Assembly (NCBI GenBank): GCA_028875575.1
Contig: JAPPDF010000082.1
Span: forward strand, 1 to 53,549
Source: Acidobacteriota bacterium
GTDB lineage: Bacteria > Acidobacteriota > Terriglobia > Versatilivoradales > Versatilivoraceae
Length of the DNA: 53,549 nucleotides
Direction of reading: 5' to 3'
Shown here: in pieces, positions 3,980 through 53,434 of the stretch
Position numbering within the stretch: the stretch's first letter is position 1
How the letters are laid out: the number at the start of each line of letters is the position of its first letter
Program-made: the position numbers and the translations under genes
Notes under the pieces: generated by a model
What the model was told of the DNA's origin: nothing
The model's input: the letters and a program-made list of their open reading frames with translations, nothing else
Databases searched by the model: none

Positions 3980-4093
3980 GGAAGCTGGCGGCCCCGGCAG
4001 GTCTCCGGCCGGGGCGAAGCCACCCATCTTAAGGAAGCCGCCCGAGGAGCGTCAACAGGAAGTGATACTTGAGGCCTGCATAAGGTTCCCAGT

Positions 4094-4916
4094 AGAACTC
4101 AATCACTCCCCCCTTGAGGGGGAGTCGGTGAGACAAGGGCCCCGCCCGCAGTCGAACCGGTGGGGGGGACGGAGTCGGCGAGATCGTCAGATAGGAGTTT
4201 CCGCCCGCAGTCGAACCGGAGGGGGTTGATGCGGCGCTGCGTGATGGAGGTCAACGGTGCGTGGGGCGTCGTTTTGGAAACGCTGTGCGTACCGGGAGGG
4301 TGCTTCTCATTCGCCGTCGATGCGACGACTGCGGGTAGGTGTGACGTGGGGCGTCGTTTGTTTGGGGAAGTAGTGCGTTCCCGAACGGGTGCTTTCCATG
4401 CGCCGCATTCGCGGCTGGGTTGGTGCTGAACCCATACGACCCCGGGCTGCCGCCTCCGTTGCCCAGAGGACTCCGCCGTCGCTGCCAAGCTCGACGCCTC
4501 CCGGGCTCCTCCTGGCTCACCCCGCAGGCGACCCTGAGCCGCAGCTACGCAGCTCTATAAGGATGGCCCGTAGGTGCGTCTCGCCGGGTAACCCACGTCA
4601 ACCGCAGCATTCGCAGCTCTCCCCGAGCCCACAACACTGCAAGAGGAAACGTGCTTTTCTATTTGGAATGATGCCCCGGGCAGGAGCCCGGGGGGAGCCA
4701 TTGGAAAACGTCACATAGGGGAAACGCGGGCGTCCCCTACGGGAGTAGAGCCGCGAATGCGGCAGCAGCAAACACCGGCAAACCCAACTCGAACGCAAGC
4801 CCGTTACTCATCTGCAAATACGCTGCATGAGCCGAATTCCTTGACAGCCGTGAATGTGGCGACAATAGGTAGCCGTGGGCGTCAGCCCATGGGGCGCTCC
4901 TATCCCAAATTAGCGG
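4094..4916 (+). repeat. R2 intergenic repeat, copy A (with R1 head)
   Basis: The roughly 1 kb gap between hyuA and the amidohydrolase is filled by repeat DNA and no recognisable gene. It begins with an R1 head at about 4101-4170 (c-run, ttga, g-run palindrome, then gagtcggtgagacaaggg). It continues into R2, whose landmarks are gcattcgcggctgggttgg, agctctataaggatggccc, aacccacgtcaaccgcagc and gaggaaacgtgctttt. It is colinear with copy B near 29.5-30.3 kb over most of its length, but carries an extra segment (about 4450-4525) between the ccgggctgccgcc block and the ctgagccgcagc block. Confidence 0.8.
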
Positions 4917-9944: not shown

Positions 9945-10073
9945 GGCCGCTCCTGCGAGGGTGAATTGCGGGCCGGGCTGGCGGACGCGGCTGCCACCGC
10001 CCGGCGGTTTCCTTTTGCGGTAGAGAGGTGTATCCTATCCCAGGATCCCCACCGAAGATACAGCGGAAATTCG

Positions 10074-12641
10074 ATGAGACCCGCCGTGCCGACCTTGCTC
10101 CTTTGCCGGGCCTTGGGGCTGCTGGCGCTGCTGGTGCCGGCCGGGTCCCAGTGGAGTCGGGCTGAGCAGCCGCGGGAAGAGCCAGCGGCCTTCTTTCAAC
10201 AACAGGTCAGGCCCATCCTGGAGACCCGATGTTTCGGCTGTCACGGCGGTCAGCCTACCGTCCAGGCGGGACTGCGCCTGACCAGCCGGGACGCCATTCT
10301 GCAGGGTGGCCGGCGGGGCCCCGCCGTCGATCCCGAGAATCCGGCCTCCAGCCTGCTGATTCGGGCCATCCAGTATGCCGGTCCCAAGATGCCGCCCGGC
10401 GGGCCCTTGCCGCCGGAGCAGGTGGCCGTGCTGACCCGGTGGGTGGAACAGGGAGCGCCCTGGCCGGAAGAGCGGCGGCAGCCGCCGGAGTTTGCCGGAC
10501 AGGAAGAGAGGCCGGCCCCCTCGGGACTCGAGGAGAACGGCAGATCGCCCCGGGTGGAAGAGGGCCGGAATTTCTGGTCCTTCCGGCCGCCCCGGCGCCC
10601 CGAGATCCCTCAGGTGGAGCGGGAGGACTGGGTCCGGACTCCCATCGACGCCTTCGTGCTGGCCAGGTTGGAAGCCGCCGGCTTGGAACCGGCTCCACCT
10701 GCCGGCAAGCGGGTGCTGTTGCGCCGCGCCTACTACGACCTGACCGGCTTGCCGCCCACTCCGGACGAGGTGGAGGCCTTCCTGTCCGACTCCTCCCCGG
10801 GTGCCTTCGCCAGGGTGGTGGAACGGCTGCTGGCCTCACCGCAGTACGGCGAGCGCTGGGCCAGGCACTGGCTCGACCTGGTCCGCTATGCCGAGTCCAA
10901 CAGCTACGAGCGGGACGGTCCCAAGCCGCTGGTGTGGCGCTACCGCGACTACGTCATCCGAGCCTTCAGCGAGGACAAGCCCTACGACCGATTCATCCTG
11001 GAACAGTTGGCGGGCGACGAGCTGGAACCGGCCGCCCCCGAAAACATCATCGCCACCGGCTTCTATCGCCTGGGACTCTGGCAGGACGAGCCGGTGGACC
11101 CGGTGCAGGAGCTCTACGAGGACCTGGACGATGTCGTCACCACCACCAGCCAGGTGTTCCTGGGCCTGACGCTCAATTGCGCCCGCTGCCACGACCACAA
11201 GCTGGACCCGCTTCCCCAGCGCGACTACTATCGCTTTCTGGCGTTTTTTCACGGAATGAAGCGCTACGGGGTGCGCAAGCCCGAGACGGTGGCCGAGGCC
11301 TCGCTTTGCGACATCGGCCCACCGCGCAAACCTCGCAGGCGCCTGGAATCCAGGTGGAGAGGGCAGCAATTCCGGCAACAGTCAGCCCCTCTCCTGCGCG
11401 AGCTGGAGAAGATCGAGAAGCTGGTCGCCGAGGACCTGACCGACGAGGAGAAGGAAGCCTTCCGCGAAGAAGCAAACCGGGCGGGCATCCTGGCCAGGCG
11501 CGTGCCCAGGCTGGTGAGCGATGTTCAGCTCGAGCGGTATGCCGAATACGGAAAACGCCTGGAGTGGATGAGGAAGGCCGCAGCCAAGCAGGATTTGCAG
11601 GCCCTGTGCGTGACCGAGGTGGGTCCCGCGCCCCGGGAAACCTTCGTTCTGGCCCGAGGCAGCTATCGGGGCAGGGGAGAGCGGGTGGAGCCGGGCTTCC
11701 CTTCGGTCCTCTCGCCTCCTCGGCCACAGCTCGAACCGGCCCCCGGCAACGGAAAGACCTCGGGGCGGCGCCTGGCGCTGGCCCGCTGGATTGCCAGTCC
11801 CGACAATCCCCTCACGGCTCGGGTCATGATCAACCGGGTCTGGCAATTCCATTTCGGTCGGGGCCTGGTGCGGACGCCCAACGACTTCGGTTTTCGGGGA
11901 GCTGCCCCCACCCATCCAGGGCTGCTGGACTGGCTGGCGGTGGAATGGGTCCAGGGCGGCTGGCACCTGAAGCCGATCCACCGGATGATTTTGTTGTCCA
12001 GCGCCTATCGAATGGCGTCCAATTCTCGGGAGAAGGCACTGGCCCGCGACCCCGAGAACCGACTGTTGTGGCAGTTCGATATGCGGCGCCTGGCGGCCGA
12101 GGAGATTCGAGACTCGGTGCTGGCGGTCAACGGCAGCCTCAACCTGACCATGACCGGCCCCAGCATCTATCCGGTCATTCCCGATGAGGTTCTGGCCGGC
12201 CAATCGGTACCGGGTCAGAACTGGGGGAACTCCACGCCGCAGGACCTGACCCGCAGGAGCATCTACATTCACACCAAGCGTTCCCTGATCGTGCCGCTCA
12301 TCGCGGCCTTCGACGGCGCCGACCCCGACGCCACTTGCCCGGTGCGTTTCTCCACCACTCAGCCCACCCAGGCACTGCACACCCTTAACGGCGAGTTCAT
12401 GAATCGGCAGGCCCGGGTGCTGGCCGGCTTCGTCAGGGAAGAGGGGGGGAGCGCCCCGGCCGCCCAGGTCCGGGTGGCCCTCAACCGGGTGCTGCAGCGG
12501 CCGCCGACCGGCGGGGAGGTGACCCGCGGGCTGGAGTTGATGGAGTCGCTGCGGCAAGACCATCGGACCGGCCAGGACAAGGCTCTGGAGCTGTTCTGCC
12601 TGGTGGCGCTGAATTTGAACGAGTTTATCTATCTGGATTAA
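10074..12641 (+). CDS. PSCyt1-DUF1549-DUF1553 protein (planctomycete-type cytochrome-like)
   Basis: An 855-residue secreted protein. A signal peptide (MRPAVPTLLLCRALGLLALL) is followed by a heme-type motif CFGCH at residues 53-57 in the PSCyt1 domain. Then comes DUF1549 with the second cysteine block NCARCHDHKLDPL, and a C-terminal DUF1553 domain with MINRVWQFHFGRGLVRTPND. These proteins are abundant in Planctomycetota, Verrucomicrobiota and Acidobacteriota and are thought to act with the adjoining DUF1501 protein, perhaps in polysaccharide or sulfated-glycan breakdown; their reaction is unproven. The ATG is chosen because it begins the signal peptide, although a longer frame is open upstream. 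The next gene follows after about 95 bases. Confidence 0.9.
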   Translation: MRPAVPTLLLCRALGLLALLVPAGSQWSRAEQPREEPAAFFQQQVRPILETRCFGCHGGQPTVQAGLRLTSRDAILQGGRRGPAVDPENPASSLLIRAIQYAGPKMPPGGPLPPEQVAVLTRWVEQGAPWPEERRQPPEFAGQEERPAPSGLEENGRSPRVEEGRNFWSFRPPRRPEIPQVEREDWVRTPIDAFVLARLEAAGLEPAPPAGKRVLLRRAYYDLTGLPPTPDEVEAFLSDSSPGAFARVVERLLASPQYGERWARHWLDLVRYAESNSYERDGPKPLVWRYRDYVIRAFSEDKPYDRFILEQLAGDELEPAAPENIIATGFYRLGLWQDEPVDPVQELYEDLDDVVTTTSQVFLGLTLNCARCHDHKLDPLPQRDYYRFLAFFHGMKRYGVRKPETVAEASLCDIGPPRKPRRRLESRWRGQQFRQQSAPLLRELEKIEKLVAEDLTDEEKEAFREEANRAGILARRVPRLVSDVQLERYAEYGKRLEWMRKAAAKQDLQALCVTEVGPAPRETFVLARGSYRGRGERVEPGFPSVLSPPRPQLEPAPGNGKTSGRRLALARWIASPDNPLTARVMINRVWQFHFGRGLVRTPNDFGFRGAAPTHPGLLDWLAVEWVQGGWHLKPIHRMILLSSAYRMASNSREKALARDPENRLLWQFDMRRLAAEEIRDSVLAVNGSLNLTMTGPSIYPVIPDEVLAGQSVPGQNWGNSTPQDLTRRSIYIHTKRSLIVPLIAAFDGADPDATCPVRFSTTQPTQALHTLNGEFMNRQARVLAGFVREEGGSAPAAQVRVALNRVLQRPPTGGEVTRGLELMESLRQDHRTGQDKALELFCLVALNLNEFIYLD

Positions 12642-38282: not shown

Positions 38283-38372
38283 GGAGGCGTGGCAGAGTGG
38301 TCGATTGCGGCGGTCTTGAAAACCGTTGTACCTTGACGGGTACCGTGGGTTCGAATCCTACCGCCTCCGCCA
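38283..38372 (+). tRNA. tRNA-Ser (anticodon TGA)
   Basis: A 90-base class II tRNA with a long variable arm. The acceptor GGAGGCG pairs with CGCCTCC, the discriminator is G and CCA is encoded. The anticodon arm is GCGGT-CTTGAAA-ACCGT with TGA at 38317-38319, and the T loop is TTCGAAT. It reads serine codons UCA (and UCG by wobble). It lies just downstream of the foldase gene and upstream of the toxin-antitoxin genes, a common edge for inserted DNA. Confidence 0.95.
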
Positions 38373-38445: not shown

Positions 38446-38670
38446 ATGGAATTGGCCAAAATCACCGCACGTGGGCAGACGACGATCCCCAAAAACATCC
38501 GTGAGGCTGCCAACCTGGTCGAGGGCGACGTGATCTCTTTCGAAATGGACGGCGATCGCTTGGTGGTGCGCAAGGTGACGCCGGGGCAGGACGAGTATCT
38601 GCAAGGCCTCTCCGAAGTTCTGAGCGAATGGATTTCGCCCGAAGACGAGGAAGCGTGGCGTGACCTTTGA
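38446..38670 (+). CDS. AbrB/MazE-type antitoxin
   Basis: A 74-residue swapped-hairpin (SpoVT/AbrB) DNA-binding antitoxin. The fold signature is AKITARGQTTIPKNIREA then LVEGDVISFEMDGDRLVVRK. The acidic C-terminus (SEWISPEDEEAWRDL) is the part expected to bind and block the toxin. Its last 11 bases overlap the start of the MazF-like gene, the usual order for this type II module. It probably represses the operon from the palindrome just upstream. Confidence 0.88.
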   Translation: MELAKITARGQTTIPKNIREAANLVEGDVISFEMDGDRLVVRKVTPGQDEYLQGLSEVLSEWISPEDEEAWRDL

Positions 38671-38995
38671 TTTGCTCGATGTGGTCGTTGTCCCTTTCCC
38701 ATTCACGGATCGCCGGACCAGCAAGCGCCGGCCGGCATTGATCGTCTCATCGTCAAACTTCAATCGGGCTCATGATCAGTTTGTCCTGGCCATGATCACG
38801 TCGACCGGGAACGACTGGCCCAGTGACGTGGCGATCCAGGGATGGCGGGAAGCTGGCCTCAACGTTCCCTGCAAGGTCCGTTTCAAGCTTTTTACCCTCG
38901 ACGACGCTCTGATTGTTCGCAAGGTCGGGAGGTTGTCGAAAGAGGATGGCGAAGAAGTGAATAAAGCACTGGGACAAGTTCTGGCAGGCAACTGA
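38660..38995 (+). CDS. MazF/PemK-type mRNA interferase toxin
   Basis: A 111-residue toxin of the PemK/MazF family, sequence-specific RNases neutralised by the cognate antitoxin. It begins FDLLDVVVVPFPFTDRRTSK, followed by the substrate-side block RRPALIVSS, then MITSTGNDWPSDVAIQGW and a C-terminal VRKVGRLSKEDGEEVNKALG. It starts at a GTG that overlaps the antitoxin gene by 11 bases. Length is typical. Together with the antitoxin it forms a complete module of the kind that stabilises chromosomal islands. Confidence 0.88.
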   Translation: MTFDLLDVVVVPFPFTDRRTSKRRPALIVSSSNFNRAHDQFVLAMITSTGNDWPSDVAIQGWREAGLNVPCKVRFKLFTLDDALIVRKVGRLSKEDGEEVNKALGQVLAGN

Positions 38996-39467: not shown

Positions 39468-39755
39468 ATGGACGTCGGCTTTGACTGGAGCGTAGAGAAG
39501 AACCAGCTACTCATCCAACAGCGGGGAATCTCATTCGAGATCGTCGTATCCGTCATGGAGCAGGGTGGCTTGGTGGACGTGGTGGAGCATCCCAACCAGG
39601 ACCGCTACCCGGGACAGTTGATCTACGTTGTGGAGATCGACGAGTACATCTACCTCGTGCCTTTTGTGATTCAGACCGACGGCACTCGCTTTCTGAGGAC
39701 GATTATTCCCAGCCGGAAGGCGATGAGAGACTATCGGAGGAGGCAACCAAAGTGA
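39468..39755 (+). CDS. BrnT-type (DUF497) toxin
   Basis: A 95-residue ribonuclease-like toxin of the BrnT family. The pattern is FDWSVEKNQLLIQQRGISFE, then a middle HPNQDRYPGQLIYVVEIDEY, and the conserved end FLRTIIPSRKAMRDYRRRQ. BrnT folds like RelE-type toxins and is blocked by the downstream antitoxin. The order toxin-then-antitoxin is normal for this family, and the two genes share a GTGA overlap. Length is typical. Confidence 0.88.
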   Translation: MDVGFDWSVEKNQLLIQQRGISFEIVVSVMEQGGLVDVVEHPNQDRYPGQLIYVVEIDEYIYLVPFVIQTDGTRFLRTIIPSRKAMRDYRRRQPK

Positions 39756-40027
39756 AAGACCCAATGAGTGTGGAAGAACGTGACATTCTGAATCAGTTCG
39801 AAAGGGGAGAGTTGCGCTCCACTCCCGATGCTGAACGCGAAATTGAGATAGCCCGCCGGTCTGCTCGCAATACCTTTAATAAAACCAGGCGAGTGAATTT
39901 GCGCGTAACTGAGCGTGACTTCAACCTTGCTCACTCAAGGGCCAGGGAAGAAGGGATCCCCTATCAGACACTTTTGTCCAGCGTCATCCACAAGTACCTG
40001 TCCGGCCGGCTGACGGAAAAGAGATAG
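39752..40027 (+). CDS. Antitoxin partner of BrnT (CopG/BrnA-like)
   Basis: A 91-residue protein with a charged N-terminus and a C-terminal ribbon-helix-helix-like segment: RRVNLRVTERDFNLAHSR, AREEGIPYQTLLSSVIHKYL. That layout fits CopG/BrnA-type antitoxins that bind the operon operator. It begins at GTG overlapping the toxin stop, preceded by GGAGGAGG, although an ATG four codons later is possible. It closes the second toxin-antitoxin module upstream of the polyketide cluster. Confidence 0.82.
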   Translation: MKDPMSVEERDILNQFERGELRSTPDAEREIEIARRSARNTFNKTRRVNLRVTERDFNLAHSRAREEGIPYQTLLSSVIHKYLSGRLTEKR

Positions 40028-40128: not shown

Positions 40129-40241
40129 CGTGTATCGACGGGAAAGGGCAGGGTGACCGCGGGTGGCTACCTGTCACCTGTCGGGATCAACCGGAGGGGA
40201 TTGCAGCACCTGAGATGGAATATGGAGGTCCGTGCGCAGCC

Positions 40242-43200
40242 ATGAATTCCGCCGATTCCGATAACGCCGTTGCCATCGTCGGATATGCCTACCGGATGCC
40301 GGGAGGGATCCGGACCGACGACGATTTCTGGCGTCTGCTCAGTGAACGAGAAATCGTGCAGGAGCCCGTTACCGACCGTTATGGCCGAGGCTACCGGCCG
40401 ATTGGCGGATTCTCTGGCCCCGGGCGGATCGCCAGCCCCTACGAGGGATTGATCCGCCAGGATGAGGAAAGGCTCTTCGATCGCAGCCTCTTCGGAATGT
40501 CGCATAACGAGATGATGGCAACCGATCCGCAGTTGCGGATGCTGATGTCCTGCGCCTGGGAGAGCATCGAGCGGACCGGCTGGGATTTGCACTCATTGCG
40601 CAATAGCGCCACCGGCGTCTTCGTTGGCGGGCAGGTCCCGTCGGTGGCGAACTGGCGACCGATGCGCGGAGTCGATGAGTTTTCCGTTACGAGCATCAGT
40701 CTGGCCATGCTGGCCAACCGCATTTCCTTCCACTTCAATTTGATGGGACCTTCCGCCACCTATTGCACCGCCTGTTCCGCCAGCCTGACCGCTTTGCACT
40801 CGGCGCTGAACGCAATTCGCTGCGGCGATTGCGAACAGGCCCTGGTCGGCTCGGTCAACTATCTGGGCGGAGCCCGGCTAAGCATTGCCTTCAACGCTCT
40901 GGGCGTGATCAGTCCGGACGGCAAATGCCACTCCTTCGACGCCGAAGCCAACGGCTACATGCGCTCGGAAGGGGCGTTCGTCTTTGCCATCAAGCCCCTG
41001 GCAGCAGCCGAAAGGGACGGCGACCACATTTACGCCGTGGTGGAGGCGACCGCTCTAAATGCCGCCGGCGGGGCCGACGGAAGTGACGGACTGGCTCAAG
41101 GGCGCTATATCACCGCCCCCACCCGGCACGCACAGGTGGAATTGATGCGCACGGCCTTTGGACGTGCGGGTCGGTCGATGGGAGACGTCGACTATATCGA
41201 GGCTCATGCGACCGGCACGGTGGTGGGTGACCGTATTGAAGGGAACGCCATCACCGAAGCCTTCCGCGGGTTCGATCGAGAGGTTCCGCTGCGAATCGCC
41301 AGCGTCAAGAGCAACGTGGGGCATATGGAGGCAGCGGCGTTCCATTGCGCCCTGTTCAAGGTCATCCTGATGATGCAGCGGCGCACCTTCGCTCCCAACT
41401 CCAAGAATTTCGTCGCACCCAATCCGGAAATCGACTTCGACAGTTGTCCCATGCAGGTGCAGACCAACTGCGAGCCATTTCCGGAACGTCCCGTCACGGT
41501 GGGAATCAACTCATTCGGATTCGGGGGCGCCAACGGACATTGTGTCGTGCGTGAATACCGTCCGGAACAGTCACGGCGGTGGTCGGTGCCGCTGGCTCCG
41601 GAGGCCGGGTTCATGATTCCGCTCTCGGCACGGACGTCGGGCACACTGGCTCGGAGCGCTCAGCAGCTCCGGGAAACGCTGTCCGAGCAAGAGGTCGATC
41701 TCTATACACTGGCTGGAAATCTCAGCCGTCGCCGCACTCATTTCGCCGCCCGCAAGGCCTTCGCAGTACGCAGCCGGCGGGAGTTGGTCGAGGCGTTGGA
41801 CGCCTTTGCGCCGGAATCCTCATCGGTTTCCATGGTCGAGGAGGGGGAGCGGCGTGTGGCCATGGTGTTTTCCGGACAGGGAACTCAGTGGGCGGGTTGC
41901 GGCCGCGGCCTCTACAACGCCGATCCCGTTTTTCGCCGGGCCATCGACGCCATCGACACCCACTGGCGGGAACACTCGGACATGTCGTTGCGCGAGGCCT
42001 GTTTCTCCGCCACCCAAGAGGAACTCAATGAGGTCCAACTGGCTCAGCCCGTAATATTCATGATCCAGTGCGCACTGGTGGAACTGCTCAAGACCTGGGG
42101 GGTCTATCCGTACTGCGTGGTCGGCCACAGTTCCGGCGAGGTCGCCGCTGCCTACGCCTGCGGGGCGCTTTCGCTGGAGGACGCAACCCGCCTGGTCTTC
42201 CATCGCGCCACACTGCAACAGGCGACAGCCGGTACCGGCCGCATGCTGGCGGTGGGACTGGACCGGCCGGGCCTGGAAGAACTGCTCGAAGCCTTGTCTG
42301 TTCCGCTTCGGGCCGAGGGAGAAGGTCCGACCCGGGTGGAGATCGCCTGCGAGAACGCTCCGGCCAGCACGGTCATCTGCGGGAAAGAGGCCGCATTGAG
42401 GCCCATTATGGAGGAGTTGGACCGCCGCCGCCTGCAGAATCGGTTGCTGCCGGGCAACATCGCCTTCCATTCCACCGCCATGAACCCGATCAAGGACAAG
42501 GTGCTGGCGGCCATGTCCTTCCTCGACGAGTGTGCCTTCGACGCCGAGGTGCCGTTCGTCTCTTCGGTGACAGGTGGGAGGATGGATCGGTTGGACAGTC
42601 CCTACTGGTGGTCGAATATTCGCCAGCCGGTTCTGTTCAGGGCGGCGATGGAAAGCATACAAACAGAATTCCGACCCCAGGTAGTGCTGGAAATCGCGCC
42701 GCACAGTGCCCTGCAACCCACCATCGTGCAGTGCTCGGAGGGCAAGTTGCAGGCGCCGGTCTGCGTTCCGACGCTCATGCGGAATTCCGATGTCTGCCGA
42801 GGCTTCCTGGAAGCCCTGGGCGCCCTTTTTGAGGCTGGAGTCAGCCTGGATTTCGCCGCTCAGTATCCGCGCCCGAAACCCGTAGCTCACCTGCTTCCCG
42901 GTCATCCCAGAGAAGAGCAGACGGCGATGGATCTCATGTGCGACAACGAGATGTTCGTCCGGCAGGGCGAGTACTCCCACGGTCCTTTGGTCGGACACAG
43001 GATTCCTTCCGACCATCTGCTGTTTGAAGCACGGCTTTCAGAGAGGGACTTCCCCTGGCTGACGGACCATCGCGTCCATCATGCCCCGATCATGCCGGCA
43101 GCCGGTTACATTGAATTGGTTCTGCAGGCGCTCAAAGGCGTCCCGGCTCATTTCGAAGAGATCGAATTTCTTCAGCCCTGCCCCATTCCCAAAACGGCTG

Positions 43201-46200
43201 TGCGCTTGCAGACAGCGCTCCATCCCGTGGCCAATGCTCCCGGCGAATATACTTTCACCATTTCTTCACGGGCTTACGACGTCGAAGCGGAAAACGTGCT
43301 CCACTGTCGCGGCAGGGTGCACCGAACCGGCGACCCCGGGGTGCCTGGCGTGGCGGAGCGTCTTTCGGATGTCGACACGTCGGACTGCGATCTCGTTCGC
43401 CTGATGAGTGGGGAGAGCTTCTACGAGCATGCTGAGGCAATCCTCGGCCACGCCTTTCACTATGGTCCTGCCTTCCAGACGATTCAGGGAGTCGAGGCGG
43501 ACGTCGCCGCCAGGGTATTCCGGTTCGATGTGGCGGTGGATGAGGAGTTGTGGAGCAGTGGCCAGGAGGAAGGCTTCGTCCTGTTCCCCGCCTTGATGGA
43601 CGGCGGCCTGCAAATCTTTCTGCACTATCTCATGCGGAAATCCGATTTGTTTGCCATTCCGCAGCGAGCCCGGCATCTGACCTTCGTTCGTCCCCCGACA
43701 TCCCCCCGGATCACCTGTCATGTGGCGGGAGGGATCAACGACTTGTCGGGAACGGACGAAAGGGGTCAATTTACGATTCCGCTGGGAGAAATTTCCCTGG
43801 GCAGTATCAGTTTCTACGATGGAGAGACCGGGTTGCTTTGCGCCCACATCGGCCAGTACTGCTCCTTCAACTCCAATCCGAGGTGGAACGACCTGCCGCA
43901 CAACAAGCACGTACTGTCCTGGCAACCGAAGTTCGTTCCCGCGGGACAACCGCTGGCAGATCGATTGCCCGACGGCGAGATCGAGCCGGCCGGGTTGATT
44001 GCCGCTCTGGAGGAGCCCGAGCGGGGCGAGCGCTACAACTGCCACGTGATCGAATTGGCGGGTTGTCGAGAAGCGGATCGGACGATCCTCCATCAATGTG
44101 TCGAGTACCTTTCGGCTGGCGACGCACAGACCGAGTTCTGGCTCATCAGCGACCGGGAGGAGATCGCCCGGGGCCACTACGAGGCATTTCACCACCACGA
44201 CGCCGCCCTTCGATTCGATTATCACGATCCCGCCTCAGAGCCGGTTCTGGATAGGGGCCTGCTGCGCCCGGGTGCCGCCGAGATCCTTTTCCTGCATGCG
44301 GATGGCAGGGCGCTTGGCCCGGAGAATTGGGTACTGGCCCGTCGTCTGGCGGTGCCCGGCGGCCTGGCGCTGATCTCTCACGGCGAGGGCGAGGTCATCG
44401 CTCCTGGCGCCGGTTGGGCCACCTTGCGCTCCGGACGACGCACAACCCTGCTGCAGGCGCCCCAGTCCAACGACGACGGCCATGACATCGGGGAGTTGCC
44501 GAGTCCACGGTGGGTAGTGGGAGGCCGGGAAGGCCGGGCCGCAGAGTGGGTCTCGCTCCTGGATTCGTCCCAGCCAATTCACCGGATCTCCGATGAATCC
44601 CTTGCCTCGAGCAGACTCCACACGCTTGACCGGTGGCCGCAGGCAGCCGATCTGCAGGCCATTGACTTCTTCTGCGAGCCGGACTCGGAAGACGAAACGG
44701 GCGAGCAGGTCGTGTGGCGGCTAATCGCGTTCGTGCAAGCCCTGGTTTCCTACCGGATCGAGCACGCAAGTCGCCCCTGCCGCATGACGGTCGTGACCCA
44801 CAGGGCCGTGCACGACGTTGGAGATCCGCGAGGGAGTGGGCCGTGGGGAGCGGTTCGCAGTATGGCTGCCGAGGTTGGTGAGGAAGCAAGAATCGACTTT
44901 CGTCTCGTGGACCTGGGTGATTCCGGCGACCTGAAGACGTTGGCCCGGCTTGCTCGGACCGATTTGCGCGAGCGAGAGTTGGCGATCCGGCAGCGCCGCC
45001 TGTGGGTGCCGCGGATCGTCAGCATTCGTGAACGTTTTTCAGGAGTGCCGGGCCGCGCGCAGCCCACCTACCGGCTCACCCTGGACAACCCCGGCCAGAT
45101 TGTCGGTCTGCAGATGAAGACCTACCAGTTGCCGCTGCCCGGGCCGTCGGATGTGGAGATCGAGGTGGCGGCCACCGGGCTCAACTTCCGCGACGTCATG
45201 GTTGCGCTGGGGTTGTTGCCGGCCCTGGCCTATGAGCGTTCGGCGATGGGCCGTGAAGTCGGGATGGAGGGAAGCGGGATCGTCCGCCGCGTCGGACCGG
45301 AAGTGCATCATTGCCGCGTGGGTGATGAGGTCGCGTTCATACAGGGCGGGTGCATCGCCAATCGCGTCATCGTCAACCAACACCACGTTTTCGCCAAGCC
45401 TGCCAGTCTGAGCATGGAGGAAGCCGCATCCTCGTTGTCGGTATACGTCACCGCCTACTATTCCCTGATTCACCTGGCCCGTCTGAGCCAGGGTCAGCGC
45501 GTTCTTGTTCATTCGGCTATGGGGGGTGTCGGGCAGGCTGCGATCGCCTTGGCCAGACACGTGGGGGCGGAAATCTATGCTACCGCCGGCAGCCGGAGCA
45601 AACGCGAACGCTTGCTGGCGATGGGAGTGCGAGGGGCTTTTGACTCCCACAGCTTCGACTGGTACGACGATCTGATGGCGGCGACCGGCGGTGAGGGCGT
45701 CGACGTCGTGCTGAATTCCCTGGCAGGCCACCACATTCAGTTGTGTCTGCAGGCCCTGCGCCCGGGGGGGTGGCATTGCGAGATCGGCAAGATCGATATC
45801 TATGCCGACAGCGATCTCAGCCTTCGTGTCTTCCGCAAGAACCTGCGCTTCGCGGCCATCGATGTGGACCGCATGATGATCGACGACCCGGACCTTTCGC
45901 GCCATCTTTCTCAAGCTTGCCTGGACTTGCTCGATCAAGGAGCGTTGTCGCCGTTGCCGGTGACCGTGTTTCCTTACCAGGACTACGCCAAGGCCCTGCG
46001 TTTGATGACGACGGGCCAACACCAGGGGAAACTGGTCCTTCAGGCCCCCCGATCTCTTTCCGGACCCGAATTCCCGATTGCCGACGCGCGGCCGTTTCTC
46101 GACCCGGATGCCACCTATCTGGTGACCGGGGGTTTGGGTGGCTTCGGGCTTCGATTGTTGCCCTACCTGGTAGCCTCGGGAGCTCGCCATCTCACTTTGA

Positions 46201-47309
46201 TGGACCGGGATCCTGAGCGACGCCGGAGCGTCGAGTGGATTCGCAGGTCGACTACGCTGATCAACATGAATCAGGATGTCGAAATCGACATTGTTTCGGG
46301 CGACGTGGCCGTTGAAGCGGACGTTCGGCGCTGTGTGGCCCAACTGCAGAAACCCCTGAAGGGGGTCTTTCATCTCGCCGGAATGCTGGACGACCGGCTG
46401 CTGGCCGACACCTCCGGTGAATCCGTGACCCGAGTATTCGCGCCCAAGGCTCGTGGCGCGCTGCATCTGCACCGGGCCACCGCCGGCCATCCGCTGGATC
46501 ACTTTGTCCTTTTCTCTTCGATCTCCTCCACCTTCGGCAACTTCGGGCAGATCAACTACAGCGCCGCCAACGCGTTCGTGGACGGACTGGTTGCCTGGAG
46601 GAAGCTGCAGGGCCTGCCGGGTCTGTCCTACAGCCTGGCAGCCGTGGCCGAGGTCGGAATGGCCGCTCGCAATCTTCACCTGTTGCGAATGATGAGGGCT
46701 GTCGGTACGCCACCGGTCAGCAGCGATTCCGCCATAGGCAACCTCGATTACGCCTTGCGTTCGGCCGGCGACCGGGACCATCTGATGACCATCTTCTTCA
46801 CCCGGCCGCCGTGGACTTTCAATGCTCCGGACTATATGAGGGCCGGGCGCTTGATGAACAACCAGGATGCCTTCGAGGGTGAAGCGAGCAGCCAGTTGAC
46901 AGTCGAGGGCGTCGTAGCGCAGATCGCCGAAAAGGTCGCCGAACTCTGCGGCCACGAAGAGGGAGGCGTCGAGGAACCGTTGTCCAGCTTCGGGCTCACC
47001 TCCATCTCGGTTGCCGAACTTGGGACGTTTATCCAGACGCAGTTCAACTACCAGGTGAGCGCGCTCGAGTTGATGACGACAGCTTCCTCGCTGTCTCTGG
47101 CACAGGCGATCGTCCATGGGACGGCTGATGTTGAGCAGGACCAGGCCGAAACGGACAGGGTTGACACCGAGGACGCTACGCATACTGTCCAGCGGCACCT
47201 TCGCCGGGCGCCGTCGGCTTTTGCCAACGCGCGCGAGGACCACTTTCCGAACGGCCGCCGTTTGGAAACCGGGATTGTGCGAGCCTCGGCCGACACGCAC
47301 GCCGGATGA
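40242..47309 (+). CDS. Reducing type I polyketide synthase, one module (KS-AT-DH-ER-KR-ACP)
   Basis: A 2355-residue synthase that extends and fully reduces an acyl chain on its own ACP. KS: C178 in CTACSASL, H322 in EAHATGTVVGD, H361 in KSNVGH. AT, about residues 537-840: S630 in GHSSGE. DH, about 910-1200: H943 in WLTDHRVHHAPIMP and D1120 in PALMDGG. Residues about 1230-1600 look like a degenerate methyltransferase (no SAM-binding motif) and a pseudo-KR (GPWGAVRSMAAEV). ER, about 1610-1935: LNFRDVMVALG and HSAMGGVGQAAI. KR: TGGLGGFG with Y2106 in INYSAANAF. ACP: S2254 in FGLTSISVAEL (DS replaced by TS). There is no thioesterase. A start nine codons earlier is possible. The three next genes follow closely. 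Iterative use is likely but unproven. Confidence 0.93.
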   Translation: MNSADSDNAVAIVGYAYRMPGGIRTDDDFWRLLSEREIVQEPVTDRYGRGYRPIGGFSGPGRIASPYEGLIRQDEERLFDRSLFGMSHNEMMATDPQLRMLMSCAWESIERTGWDLHSLRNSATGVFVGGQVPSVANWRPMRGVDEFSVTSISLAMLANRISFHFNLMGPSATYCTACSASLTALHSALNAIRCGDCEQALVGSVNYLGGARLSIAFNALGVISPDGKCHSFDAEANGYMRSEGAFVFAIKPLAAAERDGDHIYAVVEATALNAAGGADGSDGLAQGRYITAPTRHAQVELMRTAFGRAGRSMGDVDYIEAHATGTVVGDRIEGNAITEAFRGFDREVPLRIASVKSNVGHMEAAAFHCALFKVILMMQRRTFAPNSKNFVAPNPEIDFDSCPMQVQTNCEPFPERPVTVGINSFGFGGANGHCVVREYRPEQSRRWSVPLAPEAGFMIPLSARTSGTLARSAQQLRETLSEQEVDLYTLAGNLSRRRTHFAARKAFAVRSRRELVEALDAFAPESSSVSMVEEGERRVAMVFSGQGTQWAGCGRGLYNADPVFRRAIDAIDTHWREHSDMSLREACFSATQEELNEVQLAQPVIFMIQCALVELLKTWGVYPYCVVGHSSGEVAAAYACGALSLEDATRLVFHRATLQQATAGTGRMLAVGLDRPGLEELLEALSVPLRAEGEGPTRVEIACENAPASTVICGKEAALRPIMEELDRRRLQNRLLPGNIAFHSTAMNPIKDKVLAAMSFLDECAFDAEVPFVSSVTGGRMDRLDSPYWWSNIRQPVLFRAAMESIQTEFRPQVVLEIAPHSALQPTIVQCSEGKLQAPVCVPTLMRNSDVCRGFLEALGALFEAGVSLDFAAQYPRPKPVAHLLPGHPREEQTAMDLMCDNEMFVRQGEYSHGPLVGHRIPSDHLLFEARLSERDFPWLTDHRVHHAPIMPAAGYIELVLQALKGVPAHFEEIEFLQPCPIPKTAVRLQTALHPVANAPGEYTFTISSRAYDVEAENVLHCRGRVHRTGDPGVPGVAERLSDVDTSDCDLVRLMSGESFYEHAEAILGHAFHYGPAFQTIQGVEADVAARVFRFDVAVDEELWSSGQEEGFVLFPALMDGGLQIFLHYLMRKSDLFAIPQRARHLTFVRPPTSPRITCHVAGGINDLSGTDERGQFTIPLGEISLGSISFYDGETGLLCAHIGQYCSFNSNPRWNDLPHNKHVLSWQPKFVPAGQPLADRLPDGEIEPAGLIAALEEPERGERYNCHVIELAGCREADRTILHQCVEYLSAGDAQTEFWLISDREEIARGHYEAFHHHDAALRFDYHDPASEPVLDRGLLRPGAAEILFLHADGRALGPENWVLARRLAVPGGLALISHGEGEVIAPGAGWATLRSGRRTTLLQAPQSNDDGHDIGELPSPRWVVGGREGRAAEWVSLLDSSQPIHRISDESLASSRLHTLDRWPQAADLQAIDFFCEPDSEDETGEQVVWRLIAFVQALVSYRIEHASRPCRMTVVTHRAVHDVGDPRGSGPWGAVRSMAAEVGEEARIDFRLVDLGDSGDLKTLARLARTDLRERELAIRQRRLWVPRIVSIRERFSGVPGRAQPTYRLTLDNPGQIVGLQMKTYQLPLPGPSDVEIEVAATGLNFRDVMVALGLLPALAYERSAMGREVGMEGSGIVRRVGPEVHHCRVGDEVAFIQGGCIANRVIVNQHHVFAKPASLSMEEAASSLSVYVTAYYSLIHLARLSQGQRVLVHSAMGGVGQAAIALARHVGAEIYATAGSRSKRERLLAMGVRGAFDSHSFDWYDDLMAATGGEGVDVVLNSLAGHHIQLCLQALRPGGWHCEIGKIDIYADSDLSLRVFRKNLRFAAIDVDRMMIDDPDLSRHLSQACLDLLDQGALSPLPVTVFPYQDYAKALRLMTTGQHQGKLVLQAPRSLSGPEFPIADARPFLDPDATYLVTGGLGGFGLRLLPYLVASGARHLTLMDRDPERRRSVEWIRRSTTLINMNQDVEIDIVSGDVAVEADVRRCVAQLQKPLKGVFHLAGMLDDRLLADTSGESVTRVFAPKARGALHLHRATAGHPLDHFVLFSSISSTFGNFGQINYSAANAFVDGLVAWRKLQGLPGLSYSLAAVAEVGMAARNLHLLRMMRAVGTPPVSSDSAIGNLDYALRSAGDRDHLMTIFFTRPPWTFNAPDYMRAGRLMNNQDAFEGEASSQLTVEGVVAQIAEKVAELCGHEEGGVEEPLSSFGLTSISVAELGTFIQTQFNYQVSALELMTTASSLSLAQAIVHGTADVEQDQAETDRVDTEDATHTVQRHLRRAPSAFANAREDHFPNGRRLETGIVRASADTHAG

Positions 47310-47330
47310 GTGGCAGAGGAGAACCTCGCC

Positions 47331-49073
47331 ATGCCTAACGCTCTGTTGGTTTATCCCGAAAACCCTCCTTCCTATTGGGGGGCGAATTATGCCCTGGATA
47401 TGCTGGGCATCAAGTCGGCTTTTCCGCCTCTGGGCCTGCTCACCGTCGCCTCGATGTTTCCGCCGGAATACGAACTGCGCGTCGTGGATATGAATGTGGC
47501 TCCCTTGGAAGAGTCGGACCTGGAGTGGGCGGACCTGGTGTTTACTTCCACCATGATTGTTCAAAGAGAATCCCTGCGAACGGTCATCGAGCGGAGCAAC
47601 CGGGCCGGCATTACCGTGGTGGCCGGAGGGCCCTATCCCACCTCATTTCACGACGAGATAGAAGGCGTAGATCATTTTGTGCTGGATGAGGTCGAGGAAA
47701 CCTTTGGCGATTTCCTGCGCGACCTGGAAAACGGCAGGGCCAAGCCAATCTATCGTGAACCGCAAAAACCGGATGTGACTCGGACGCCGGTTCCACGGTT
47801 CGATCTTCTCGATATGAAGAGCTACCACTCAATGTGCGTCCAGTTCTCGCGGGGATGTCCGTTCGACTGCGAGTTCTGTGACATCACCAAGCTCTACGGC
47901 CGTGTGCCCCGCACCAAGTCGCCGGATCAGATGGTGGATGAGTTTGAGGCGTTATATCAACTGGGCTGGCGAGGCCGTCTTTTCCTGGTTGACGACAACT
48001 TCATCGGCAACAAGCGAGATGCGATGGAGCTGCTGCCGGTGATCGCCAAATGGCAGAAGGCCCGTGGCTATCCCTTCTCCCTGTTCACCGAAGCGAGCAT
48101 GAACCTGGCCCGCATGGATCGACTGATGGACATCATGATCGAAGCCGGCTTCAATTCCGTGTTCGTGGGTATTGAAACGCCTAATCCCAAGGCCCTGGTC
48201 AAGATGAAGAAGCCACAGAACGTCAACCGGCGGGATGAGAACTACCTCCTCCATTCCGTCCGCAAGATCCAGCAGAAGGGGATGCAGGTCATGGGGGGAT
48301 TCATCCTGGGCCTGGATGAGGACGACCAGAGCGTGTTCGACGCCCAGATCGATTTCATCCAGGAGGCCGGAATCCCGATGGCCTTGATCGGTCTGTTGAC
48401 GGCCCTGAAGGGAACGGATCTGTATCAGCGGCTGCAGGCGGAAAACCGGCTATTGGACGTCTCCATCGGGACGACTTCGACGGCCCTCAACTTCGTGCCG
48501 GAGATGGATCCCGAGGCGTTGATCGAGGGTTACCGGCGCGTGACCGCCACTGTCTACGACCCGACACTGGAGAATTACTTCGAGCGTTGCCTGACGTTGT
48601 TCGAACAGGTAACACCCGTTCCGCACTTGCATAAACCGCAGAGCAAGATCGCGCTTTATGCGAACATGATGGGCTTGCGCCGGCAGCTTTCCACCGAGCA
48701 AGTCCCGGCCTACATGCGGTTTATGGCCAACGTCACCAGGGACCATCCCCGCATGCTCCCGGAGGCGATTCGCCTGGCCGCCCTGGGCTACCATTTTGAA
48801 AAGGCTACCCGTCAACAGATGGCGATCCACGACTTCAAGGCGTATTTGACGGGCGAGTTGGCAACCTTCAAGGAAACGGTTTCCCATTCCGTTCCCGGCG
48901 CGGTGGAAATCAGAACCCGGAGGCAGGAACTGTTCGGGCGAGTCCAGGCGCGCAACCAATCGATTCCCGCAGACTTTCGCTACCCGGGCGACGGAATCGA
49001 GCCTGCTTTGGAGTTCTTCCGAGTCGCTGTGGATACTCAGGCGGACCAACTCACCCACTCGGCCTCAATGTAG
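47331..49073 (+). CDS. B12-binding radical SAM enzyme 1 (HpnP/HpnR-like)
   Basis: A 580-residue enzyme. The N-terminal Rossmann-like domain (residues about 1-150: NALLVYPENPPSYWG, PLGLLTVASMF, VVAGGPYPTSFH) is of the cobalamin-binding type, without an obvious DxHxxG motif. The radical SAM core starts at the 4Fe-4S motif CPFDCEFC (C176, C180, C183), followed by LFLVDDNFIGNK, FVGIETPNPKAL and GGFILGLDEDD. A long C-terminal region (DUF4070-like and beyond) ends the protein. Relatives include hopanoid methylases HpnP and HpnR and lipid-modifying enzymes, so C-methylation or another radical reaction on an sp3 carbon of a lipid-like substrate is expected. The ATG has GAGGAG upstream and lies 21 bases after the synthase stop. 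Confidence 0.9.
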   Translation: MPNALLVYPENPPSYWGANYALDMLGIKSAFPPLGLLTVASMFPPEYELRVVDMNVAPLEESDLEWADLVFTSTMIVQRESLRTVIERSNRAGITVVAGGPYPTSFHDEIEGVDHFVLDEVEETFGDFLRDLENGRAKPIYREPQKPDVTRTPVPRFDLLDMKSYHSMCVQFSRGCPFDCEFCDITKLYGRVPRTKSPDQMVDEFEALYQLGWRGRLFLVDDNFIGNKRDAMELLPVIAKWQKARGYPFSLFTEASMNLARMDRLMDIMIEAGFNSVFVGIETPNPKALVKMKKPQNVNRRDENYLLHSVRKIQQKGMQVMGGFILGLDEDDQSVFDAQIDFIQEAGIPMALIGLLTALKGTDLYQRLQAENRLLDVSIGTTSTALNFVPEMDPEALIEGYRRVTATVYDPTLENYFERCLTLFEQVTPVPHLHKPQSKIALYANMMGLRRQLSTEQVPAYMRFMANVTRDHPRMLPEAIRLAALGYHFEKATRQQMAIHDFKAYLTGELATFKETVSHSVPGAVEIRTRRQELFGRVQARNQSIPADFRYPGDGIEPALEFFRVAVDTQADQLTHSASM

Positions 49074-49114
49074 AATGCCGCCCCGGATTTGCACTGTCCG
49101 AGGAGATCGGTTCC

Positions 49115-50887
49115 ATGCCGAACGCGCTTCTGGTGTATCCCGAGTATCCTCCCTCCTACTGGGGAGTGAATTTTGCGCTGGAGATTTTCGGCATCAAGGC
49201 GGCCTTTCCACCGCTGGGTCTGCTCACCGTAGCCGCCATGTTCCCGTCAAAATACGACCTCCGTGTCGTGGACATGAACGTGACTCCCGTGGAAGAGCGG
49301 GATCTGGAGTGGGCGGATCTGGTGTTTACCTCGACCATGATCGTACAACGGGAATCCCTGCAGAGCCTTATCGAGCGATGCAACCGGGCCGGTGTCCCCG
49401 TGGTGGCCGGAGGCCCCTATCCCACCACCTACCATGAAGAGATCGCAGGCGTAGACCATTTCATACTGGATGAGGTCGAAGAGACCTTCGACGATTTTCT
49501 GCGCGACCTTGAAAACGGCACCGCCAAAGCCATCTATCGCGAGCCCCGAAAGCCGGATGTGACCCGGACCCCGGTCCCACGCTTCGACCTCATCAACCTG
49601 CACGCATACTACTCAATGTCCGTGCAGTTCTCGAGGGGATGCCCCTTCGACTGTGAGTTCTGTGACATCACCAAGCTCTATGGCCGCGTGCCCCGCACCA
49701 AGGCACCCGATCAGATGCTGGACGAGTTTGAATTGCTGTATCGACTGGGCTGGCGGAGCCATGTTTTTCTGGTTGACGACAACTTCATCGGCAACAAGCA
49801 AGAGGCGATGAAGTTGGTGCCTGAGATTGCCGCATGGCAAAGGGATCGTGGCTATCCGTTTTCCCTGTTCACCGAGGCCAGTGTCAATCTGGCCCGCATG
49901 GATGAGTTGATGGACGGCATGGTTGAAGCCGGCTTCGATTCCGTGTTTCTGGGTATTGAGACGCCGAATCCCAAGGCTTTGCGCAAAATGAAGAAACCCC
50001 AGAACGTCAGCAAGCGGGAAGAGAATTACCTCTTCAGTTCCGTTCGCAAGATTCAACAGAAAGGGATGCGAGTCGATGGCGGATTCATCCTGGGCCTGGA
50101 TGATGATGACGAGGGCGCGTTCGATGCCCAGATCGACTTTATTCAGGAAGTCGGCATTCCCATGGCCATGGTCGGGTTGCTTACCGCCCTGAAAGACACG
50201 AATCTGTGGGAACGTCTGAAAAGGGAGAACCGGCTCCTGGAAGATTCCGTTGGAACCAGCACCGAGGGAGTCCTGAACCTGACCAGCGTCAATGTCTCCC
50301 TCAACTTCAAGCCGGAGATGGATGTCGAGACATTGATGGAGGGGTACCGGCGCGTCATCACCACCATCTACGACCCGACCCTCGAGAAGTACTTCCAGCG
50401 CTGCTTGACGTTACTGGAACATCTTCGCCCCATTCCGCACTTGCTGAAGCCGGTGGGCAGCAACACGCTCTATCTGGCCATCATGTCCGTACGTCGGCAA
50501 CTCTCCTCCCAGCAGGTGCCGGCCTTTACCAAGTTCATCGCCAAAGTTTCCAGAAACCATCCCCGCATGCTCCCGGAGGCGATTCGCCTGGCTGCCCTGG
50601 GCTTCCACTTCGAAAAGATCACCCGTCAGCAGACGGCAATACACGACTTCAAGGCGTTTCTGTTGGCAGAATTGGACATGTTCAGGGAAACGGTTTCGCG
50701 TTCGGTTCAGGAAGTGGAGACAGCGGGACCTCGGAGGCAGGAGGTATTGGCGCGAGCCCAGGCCCGTTGCAAATCGATTCCAGATGACTTTCGCTATCAC
50801 GGCGATGGAATCGAGCCGGCTTTGGAGTCGTTCCGAATCGCGTTGAACTCCCCGTCGAATCAGCTCACCCACTCGGCGGCGGTGTAA
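49115..50887 (+). CDS. B12-binding radical SAM enzyme 2 (HpnP/HpnR-like paralogue)
   Basis: A 590-residue paralogue of the preceding gene, roughly three quarters identical by eye in the first 130 residues, with the cluster cysteines at the same positions (176, 180, 183). The domain order is the same: cobalamin-type Rossmann domain, radical SAM core (LVDDNFIGNKQEA, FLGIETPNPKALRK), long C-terminal part. It differs by an insertion of about eleven residues near 385-395 (TSTEGVLNLTSVNVSLNF against TSTALNF). It probably arose by tandem duplication; retention of all visible motifs in both copies argues that both work, perhaps at different positions or steps. It begins 41 bases after the first copy, with GAGGAG upstream of the ATG. 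Confidence 0.9.
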   Translation: MPNALLVYPEYPPSYWGVNFALEIFGIKAAFPPLGLLTVAAMFPSKYDLRVVDMNVTPVEERDLEWADLVFTSTMIVQRESLQSLIERCNRAGVPVVAGGPYPTTYHEEIAGVDHFILDEVEETFDDFLRDLENGTAKAIYREPRKPDVTRTPVPRFDLINLHAYYSMSVQFSRGCPFDCEFCDITKLYGRVPRTKAPDQMLDEFELLYRLGWRSHVFLVDDNFIGNKQEAMKLVPEIAAWQRDRGYPFSLFTEASVNLARMDELMDGMVEAGFDSVFLGIETPNPKALRKMKKPQNVSKREENYLFSSVRKIQQKGMRVDGGFILGLDDDDEGAFDAQIDFIQEVGIPMAMVGLLTALKDTNLWERLKRENRLLEDSVGTSTEGVLNLTSVNVSLNFKPEMDVETLMEGYRRVITTIYDPTLEKYFQRCLTLLEHLRPIPHLLKPVGSNTLYLAIMSVRRQLSSQQVPAFTKFIAKVSRNHPRMLPEAIRLAALGFHFEKITRQQTAIHDFKAFLLAELDMFRETVSRSVQEVETAGPRRQEVLARAQARCKSIPDDFRYHGDGIEPALESFRIALNSPSNQLTHSAAV

Positions 50888-50926
50888 AGGACTGCCCCCT
50901 ACCTACAGGATCGAAGGAACGAGATC

Positions 50927-53434
50927 ATGCCCGAAAGATCCACCGACAGCGGAACCGTGGCTCCGCTGGCCGGTGCGCTGCCACCGCAATGCCAGAGAGA
51001 TCTCGATGGTCTGCGTCGATTCGTTCATACAGCGACCAGCCAGGGATCGCGGTCCGATCCTGTCTCGCCAGCTCATTTTCGAGAGGTCCTGCTGACCGGT
51101 GCCACGGGATTCATTGGCCGTTTCTTCCTGCGTGAGCTGTTGCGTCAAAAATCCGATCTGGTGGTGCACTGCCTTATCCGGGCCGACAACATCGAACATG
51201 GACTCCAGCGCTTGAGGGAAGCCCTGAAGCAGGCTGAAATCTGGGAAGAGTCTCTGGCGCCGCGCATCCGCGTGGTGATCGGCGACATGACAGAAGCGCG
51301 ATTCGGGCTGAGCGAAGCGGGTTTCGATTCCCTGTGTCATCGGATCGACGCCGTCTACCATCTTGCCGCCGATCTGACCCTGGCTTCGCCCTACGCCGCC
51401 ATCCGAAAGATCAATACTTTCGGCGTTCGCAGCGTCCTGGAATTGTGCCTGCGCACACGCACCAAGCACCTGTTCTACGCTTCGACCATGGGCGTCTTTC
51501 CTCAGTACTTCTGTGCCTTCGCAAGAGAGTTCGCCGGCAGCCGCATCGAGGACCAGATGCAGCCGGACCTTGCCGACATGAAAAGGATTTTCCCGTTGGG
51601 ACTGCTGGGCTATCCATGGAGCAAGCTCGTGGCCGAGCAGAGCCTGCTGCATGCCCAGCGTGCAGGCCTGCCGGTGGCGATTTTCCGGTTGCCGCGAATC
51701 GGTCAGGCCAGTACGGGATTTGCCCAGGCGAACGACATCACCGTGCGTATTTTTTCGTCGGTCGTCGACGTCGAAATGATGCCACCTGGATTCACGATTC
51801 AGCACAGTAATGAGGCCGTCGATACCCTGAGTGAAATCGTTACGGCCATTTCGTTGAACCCACGGCGACGATTCACGATCTACCACTGCTGCAACCCTCA
51901 GCTGTCTCTCCACGAACTTGAGCCTGCCGACTTCGGATTGTATTGGCCGGAGGTCTCATACGGGTCGTTCAAGCGCGCCTGCCAAGGGCGTGGCGAGGAC
52001 TCGCCGCTGCAGGGACACTGGGCCCTGGTCGATCACTTTGCGCCCTACTGGTTCAGCGACAGCAAGTCGACAACATCGCTGCCCGTCTGCGACCGTGCCC
52101 TGCGAGAGGACTGTCCGACACCTGTCAGATGGCCGGGACTGATCACCATGGCCAAGAGCTACAGCGTTTGGACGCGGCGTCACCGGCAGCAGTGGCCGCA
52201 TCCTGTGCCACAAAGCCGCCTGGACTTCGACTGCCTGGTCGGCCGGGCTGAGACCTACGCCGAGCGCGCGGGCGTGGCCTTTGAAGAGGCTTATCCCGAA
52301 TGGGTACGAAGCGGTCTGCGCCAGATGGTTCAGGCGATAAAGGCGCCGGAATCAAGAGTGTTGGACGACAAGCTCGGCACCGTCATCTACGATATTTCCC
52401 GGTTGCTTCGCAGCAGAGCCGACTTGGCCCGCGAATGGTGTCAATACCCGGAAATCGGACAGGAGCCGGTTACGTCTCCAGTCTTTATCGTCGGGATCAA
52501 TCGCACCGGCACCACCTACCTGCATCGCCTCATGTCCCGCGACAAACGGTTTTGGGTGCTGCGACTCCATGAGCTGGGCGACCCGGTCCTCTCGGTGCCT
52601 GAATATGCCACCGTGGCAGGTACGCTCAACGACCCCCGCCGGGATCGGACCGAGGAAATGCTGAAGGCATCGGAGATCGTGAAGGCCTTCGAGGGAGTTC
52701 ACGACTTCAATATCGATGAGCCCGAGGAGGATTTTCCGATCTTCAGGATGGCTTTTGCCGCATGGGTCTCAACCGTTCGATTCCATGTGCCGGCATTCGG
52801 ACGTTGGTTGGCCGGATGTGGATTTGGCAATGCCTACGCCTTCCATCGTCGTGTCATTCGACATTTCTCCTGGCAACGGCGTATTCGCCAACCCGAATTC
52901 CGGGGGCAGTGGCTGTTCAAGATGCCCTTTCATCTTCTGGAATTGGAGAGCCTGATCGAGACATATCCGGATGCCTTGTTCATCCAGACCCATCGCGAAC
53001 CGGAGAAGTTCATGGGATCCTGGAACAGCTTGGTCGCGCGGGTGCGCTCCATTGACTCCGAGCCTCGTCCGGCCCATGAACTTGGCGCCGAGCAACTGGC
53101 TTTCATGAGCGGCATGATGGATAAGGCCGTGCCTTTCCGGGAGACTCACCCCGAACAGGAGCACCGTTGGATGGACGTGAACTACGTTGATCTGGTGGAA
53201 GATCCGCTGGCGGTTGTCCACAGAATCTATGAGCGATTCAACTGGCCGCTCAAGCGGTCGGCTATTCACGCGATGGATGATTGGTTGTTCCGGCAGGCGG
53301 AGCGGCGCCGTAAAGAGCGGCGGCATCGCTACGATCTAAAGAACTACGGGCTGACCCAAGAGGACGTCAACGCTGCCTTCTCGGGCTATCGGGAGTTTCT
53401 TTCGCGACGGGGTATTCGGCGATCCGGCCAGTAG
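50927..53434 (+). CDS. Fused thioester reductase - sulfotransferase
   Basis: An 835-residue two-enzyme protein. The N-terminal half is an extended short-chain dehydrogenase of the thioester-reductase type: VLLTGATGFIGRFFLREL near residue 58, AVYHLAADLTL, LFYASTMGVF, and catalytic Y229/K233 in LGYPWSKLVAEQ. Such domains release ACP-bound acyl chains as aldehyde or alcohol using NADPH. After a linker (about 330-515), the C-terminal half is a Sulfotransfer_3-type domain: FIVGINRTGTTYLHRL for the 5'-phosphosulfate loop near 520-535, and LFIQTHREPEKFMGSW for the 3'-phosphate loop. It would sulfate the alcohol product using PAPS. It has AAGGA before the ATG, 39 bases after radical SAM gene 2. No separate release domain exists on the synthase, which fits this protein as the off-loader. 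Confidence 0.88.
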   Translation: MPERSTDSGTVAPLAGALPPQCQRDLDGLRRFVHTATSQGSRSDPVSPAHFREVLLTGATGFIGRFFLRELLRQKSDLVVHCLIRADNIEHGLQRLREALKQAEIWEESLAPRIRVVIGDMTEARFGLSEAGFDSLCHRIDAVYHLAADLTLASPYAAIRKINTFGVRSVLELCLRTRTKHLFYASTMGVFPQYFCAFAREFAGSRIEDQMQPDLADMKRIFPLGLLGYPWSKLVAEQSLLHAQRAGLPVAIFRLPRIGQASTGFAQANDITVRIFSSVVDVEMMPPGFTIQHSNEAVDTLSEIVTAISLNPRRRFTIYHCCNPQLSLHELEPADFGLYWPEVSYGSFKRACQGRGEDSPLQGHWALVDHFAPYWFSDSKSTTSLPVCDRALREDCPTPVRWPGLITMAKSYSVWTRRHRQQWPHPVPQSRLDFDCLVGRAETYAERAGVAFEEAYPEWVRSGLRQMVQAIKAPESRVLDDKLGTVIYDISRLLRSRADLAREWCQYPEIGQEPVTSPVFIVGINRTGTTYLHRLMSRDKRFWVLRLHELGDPVLSVPEYATVAGTLNDPRRDRTEEMLKASEIVKAFEGVHDFNIDEPEEDFPIFRMAFAAWVSTVRFHVPAFGRWLAGCGFGNAYAFHRRVIRHFSWQRRIRQPEFRGQWLFKMPFHLLELESLIETYPDALFIQTHREPEKFMGSWNSLVARVRSIDSEPRPAHELGAEQLAFMSGMMDKAVPFRETHPEQEHRWMDVNYVDLVEDPLAVVHRIYERFNWPLKRSAIHAMDDWLFRQAERRRKERRHRYDLKNYGLTQEDVNAAFSGYREFLSRRGIRRSGQ

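Follow-up and report, generated by a model that had tools for sequence, protein, structure and literature searches.

The four co-oriented genes at positions 40242-53434 of the window (the whole stretch of DNA analysed here, 53,549 nucleotides) almost certainly represent, as far as family is concerned, the swf cluster of an acidobacterial symbiont, and they include a second radical SAM gene, swfC2, that has been retained within the genus. The family is secure and the chemistry is a lead: the joint claim of an swf cluster that builds a methylated alkyl sulfate is one that we regard as reasonably probable. What is new here is limited to the maintained second swfC, the wider distribution of the cluster and the history of the locus.

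Results

Organization of the Four-Gene Locus

All four genes are open frames on the + strand, in the order A-C1-C2-B. The gene swfA (40242..47309) encodes a single-module reducing polyketide or fatty acid synthase, and was assigned from Pfam domains, motifs and homologues; it is followed by two HpnP-like radical SAM genes, swfC1 (47331..49073) and swfC2 (49115..50887), and by swfB (50927..53434), whose product joins an N-terminal thioester reductase to a C-terminal sulfotransferase. The gaps are 21 bases between swfA and swfC1, 41 between swfC1 and swfC2, and 39 between swfC2 and swfB. An earlier sequence-only reading had described this layout, and the open reading frame check and the Pfam search agreed with it on the orientation, the domains and the spacing. 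Each of the four starts is preceded by a purine-rich stretch resembling a ribosome-binding site; for swfA, GGAGGT lies just 5' of 40242, and an alternative in-frame ATG is found at 40215. The operon has a G+C content of 0.58-0.64, lower than the approximately 0.62-0.69 of most of the contig. The window is an entire contig and ends 115 bases past swfB, with the 3' side of the operon beyond it; in the relatives L006 and L014, a flank shared across the genus restarts soon after swfB. The source genome comprises 4.49 Mb in 101 contigs; the same genus also contains 'Ca. Versatilivorator' and further metagenome-assembled genomes (MAGs) of Acidobacteriota.

Assignment to the swf Family

The assignment is based on an architecture that matches the published swfA, swfB and swfC and on the presence of the signature motifs. 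The swf cluster, "sponge (symbiont) widespread fatty acid synthase", was described by Della Sala in 2013 as a swfA with the domains KS-AT-DH-ER-KR-ACP, a swfB with thioester reductase and sulfotransferase, and a swfC encoding a B12 radical SAM enzyme with HpnP as the nearest characterised relative (PMC3908369). The published clusters (PS11G3 and PSA11D7 from Plakortis simplex; POR_0547-0550) share with the window the three protein families, the SwfA domain order and motifs, the reductase-sulfotransferase fusion and the HpnP-like radical SAM enzyme. They are arranged as A-B-C, as A-B without C, or as a swfA split in two followed by C-B, whereas the window has two SwfC. The sequence-only reading was aware of no published pathway combining precisely these genes; this does not stand for swfA-swfB-swfC, a named and published cluster, and applies to the second radical SAM gene alone, which is absent from the swf clusters compared, those of Della Sala 2013. 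The swf-like gene cluster families that Loureiro et al. found in 2022 in sponge MAGs of Nitrospirota, Latescibacterota and Acidobacteriota (PMC9426513) are of the same family as the window, and a swf-like cluster is also present in 'Thalassonella' (PMC10227082).

In SwfA, Pfam detected KS-AT-DH-(degenerate region)-ER-KR-ACP in a single chain and no thioesterase. The active-site motifs CTACS, HATGT, GHSSG, IAFH, YSAAN of the KR and GLTS of the ACP are present, as are all the swf signatures looked for (HATGT, GHSSGE, IAFH, QCALVEL and FSGQGTQW), which are common among 44 SwfA homologues; the KS-AT part is 70-90% identical across most swf loci. The region between DH and ER gave no methyltransferase match even at an E value of 5 and holds no SAM-binding motif, and on this search C-methylation as an integral function of the synthase was rejected. 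The published criterion for the KS, built on three clusters, is the replacement of the second Q of DPQQR by I or V (PMC3908369), giving DPQ[IV]R; the window reads DPQLR. Among the 44 homologues, this position is I in 17, V in 12, L in 3, M in 3 and F in 1, while 5 have DPHVR and 3 gave no match. Since the position varies in this way, the 2013 wording looks too narrow on these sequences.

These features also separate the cluster from sup (sponge symbiont ubiquitous PKS), the other single-module family that is spread across sponge symbionts. Going by its description, sup is proposed to yield methyl-branched fatty acids and is a different PKS family (PMC3908369, PMC4245539), whereas swf has no methyltransferase match and is accompanied by radical SAM and reductase-sulfotransferase genes.

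SwfB matched NAD_binding_4 and Sulfotransfer_3 in Pfam, with supporting NCBIfam matches, and contains GATGFIG and YPWSK in the reductase and GINRTGTT in the sulfotransferase. The nearest solved structures are the MxaA reductase (4u7w) and the putative sulfotransferase 2zq5. The terminal reductase of MxaA yields primary alcohols. The genome also encodes an APS kinase, AcpS and a second phosphopantetheinyl transferase of Sfp size, so the supply of PAPS and the activation of the ACP are plausible. The gene for the second transferase lies near another large PKS frame (3442 aa; G000:C1:2955-14283, - strand).

Two Diverged SwfC Genes

Both SwfC proteins consist of B12-binding, Radical_SAM and DUF4070 domains, the three-domain architecture of the HpnP type, and both carry CxxxCxxC. 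Their identity to cyanobacterial HpnP-like proteins is 41-42%. The sequence-only reading had called them HpnP/HpnR-like; the HpnP part of this label held, and the HpnR part was dropped, as they scored only 48-55 bits with the HpnR model, whose cut-off is 650. HpnP is a hopanoid C-2 methylase, and activity has been tested for proteins of the HpnP clade only (PMC10697835). In the tree, the SwfC enzymes form a clade of their own, apart from the plasmid HpnP-like sequences (themselves HpnP-like proteins of unproven hopanoid methylase status), and sit with a PKS and a reductase-sulfotransferase.

A search of solved structures with the SwfC sequence alone returned weak matches. The predicted model of SwfC2 (47 homologues, pLDDT 82, pTM 0.85) gave the best fold match to AprD4 (Z 23.7), followed by MgmA (21.0), CysS (19.7) and OxsB, TsrM and TokK (17.6-19.0). 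On this model, SwfC2 belongs among the B12-domain radical SAM enzymes, and the fold leaves methylation undecided. An inserted loop of SwfC2 around residues 385-392, modelled with low confidence, is shared with the SwfC of two Nitrospira.

SwfC1 and SwfC2 are 73% identical. In the tree, C1 (three sequences) and C2 (four sequences) each formed a well-supported clade that includes orthologues from further species of the genus, those of C2 being in L006, L007 and L009. The best tree does not place C1 and C2 as sisters and so speaks against a simple recent tandem duplication; the AU test leaves such a duplication open, a single C1 + C2 clade not being rejected (p 0.166), and neither was a grouping of C2 with the Nitrospira SwfC (p 0.34). 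The dN/dS values among C1 and among C2 orthologues were 0.11-0.20 (swfC1, 0.15), which on sequence comparison places both genes under purifying selection. C2, with orthologues of its own in other species and this selection acting on it, is therefore a retained second enzyme. A third, lone SwfC-like paralogue is found elsewhere in the same genome (C80:31312-33048; locus L118 9307-11112, - strand), in a block with creD, an enolase-family gene and fabD-fabG-fabF that is kept in the genus, and it may modify ordinary fatty acids.

Distribution of the Gene Set

When the second radical SAM protein was used as a query against 84,980 species genomes, 515 relatives were obtained, and the best 80 of these 515 loci were analysed. 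They span Acidobacteriota, Nitrospirota, Latescibacterota, Binatota, Gemmatimonadota, Pseudomonadota, Spirochaetota, Chloroflexota and Rhodothermota, several of which (Gemmatimonadota, Pseudomonadota, Binatota and Rhodothermota among them) lie beyond the three phyla of Loureiro's families. Most are from MAGs whose isolate names suggest a marine-sponge origin. The jk18x MAGs are known to be Ircinia sponge symbionts (PMC9531527), and the acidobacterium of the window is most likely sponge-associated.

Within these best 80 of 515 loci, the order was A-C-B in 26, A-B-C in 15, C-A-B in 4 and B-A-C in 1; C was divergent from A-B in 3, A-C-C-B was found in 2, A-C-C cut by the contig end in 1, and C alone in 15, with several more loci interrupted by contig ends. 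One swfC is thus usual, and nearly all the other swf loci have a single copy. Clustering of the flanking open reading frames showed that only A, B and C recurred in more than nine of the 80 loci. The sequence-only reading had been made to depend on the genes not being confined to this one place, and they recur together in dozens of loci from several phyla. Because the order of the recurring genes varies (A-C-B, A-B-C, C-A-B, B-A-C and divergent), these comparisons suggest a set kept together by its function and not by a single inherited layout. In genomes outside the window's genus where C is unlinked, swfA was present elsewhere in 9 of 13; the scan was seeded with C, which puts the frequency of A without C outside its reach. 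A divergent swf-like set with genes pointing apart was seen in a Rhodothermales MAG (L076 6965-14274), its swfB parts being 37-41% and its KS-AT 53% identical.

Among 211 Acidobacteriota genera (396 genomes), swfB was found in two. The tree of the SwfA KS-AT part grouped sequences by phylum only partially, with 10 changes against the least possible number of 5. This suggests gene transfer, a signal that can also arise from paralogy or from errors in the binning of MAGs.

History of the Locus within the Genus

The start of swfA lies about 1.9 kb past a tRNA-Ser(TGA) (38283..38372, + strand, ARAGORN), and this tRNA also precedes swf in L006 and L014/L127. Between the tRNA and swfA, two toxin-antitoxin-like pairs were found on the + strand in a low-G+C stretch, one MazE/PemK-like (38446..38995, Pfam) and one BrnT/CopG-like (39468..40027, both matches below the Pfam cut-off); these are context and not part of the pathway. 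In the complete genome G001 (L126, about 3455-4208 of the reverse complement), two pieces of swfB, whose DNA is 94% and 92% identical to that of L006, lie between the tRNA-Ser and the shared right flank, while swfA and swfC are gone from the site. As read from this comparison, the pieces are a deletion remnant of a genome that has lost the locus. A single clade for all swfC of the genus at the tRNA-Ser site was rejected (AU p 0.0002), and parts of the locus have therefore probably been exchanged during the history of the genus.

Discussion

Proposed Pathway

A methylated alkyl sulfate was already proposed as the swf product in 2013 (PMC3908369), and the sequence-only reading (a reduced chain, radical methylation, reductive release and sulfation) agrees with that proposal; nothing contradictory was found, and each step, their order and the product are predictions. 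SwfA would iterate on malonyl-CoA with full reduction and leave a saturated acyl chain on its own ACP; the starter unit, the chain length and the actual use of the reductive domains lie beyond what sequence can show. As there is no thioesterase, the reductase domain of SwfB would free the chain, more probably as a primary alcohol than as an aldehyde, and the sulfotransferase domain would convert the alcohol with PAPS to an alkyl sulfate. With no methyltransferase domain detectable in SwfA, the synthase itself is probably unable to methylate, and SwfC1 and SwfC2, as cobalamin-dependent radical SAM methylases, would methylate unactivated carbons of the chain, the presence of two enzymes allowing for a further site or a further round. 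For SwfC, cobalamin binding and methyl transfer are predicted from the domain match and the fold.

It is the likeness to HpnP that points to methylation, HpnP being the nearest family of known activity in sequence, whereas the best fold match, AprD4, is a diol dehydratase and no methylase. The SwfC enzymes could instead bring about another radical change on the chain, such as C-C coupling, desaturation or dehydration, and other B12-domain radical SAM enzymes of lipid metabolism may join chains or close rings, the 'ladder' lipid family TIGR04072 giving a weak score for SwfC; nevertheless, the methylases MgmA, TsrM, CysS and TokK follow close behind AprD4 in fold score, and we consider such a role unlikely. 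Still less likely is that the sulfotransferase serves to activate the chain, with sulfate as a leaving group as in curacin biosynthesis and an unsulfated final product, e.g., an alkene or other lipid. The 2013 authors raised this possibility, and by their account alkyl sulfates were not known as widespread in sponges (PMC3908369), but curacin-type chemistry requires a beta-hydroxyacyl-ACP and a thioesterase, and in the present cluster the sulfotransferase forms one protein with a reductase and no thioesterase was found.

C2 could also be a redundant duplicate in tandem with C1 that has no role of its own, has survived by chance and is heading for loss, as a single C suffices in nearly all other swf loci. 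In L007, a MAG, swfC2 is truncated at codon 511, where it joins a swfB that lacks its start codon (10001-11600), through either a deletion or an assembly error. However, the window and L006 both carry an intact C2, as does L009 up to its contig end, and together with the dN/dS values across the genus this makes redundancy somewhat unlikely in our view. A more speculative extension, which we hold to be doubtful, is that the swf product of the window's genus is a distinct one: two methylases that have diverged and are each maintained, acting on one chain at different sites or in sequence, would give a doubly (or ethyl/isopropyl-) branched alkyl sulfate, of which a simpler form would occur in unrelated sponge symbionts through gene transfer. 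No such branched alkyl sulfates from bacteria are reported in the papers searched.

Significance

The swf cluster has been a widespread, apparently sponge-restricted orphan since 2013. The whole cluster gave no new compound in E. coli BAP1, the AcpS of E. coli fails to activate the ACP of SwfA (PMC3908369), and the papers searched report no swf product since the 2013 description. The set is kept across several phyla despite reordering or an unlinked swfC, and the natural variants with one C, two C or a deletion offer a direct way to test what the radical SAM enzymes do. If confirmed, a methylated alkyl sulfate would be a lipid type invisible to surveys based on saponification, as the 2013 authors pointed out (PMC3908369), and would also represent a horizontally spread symbiosis trait.
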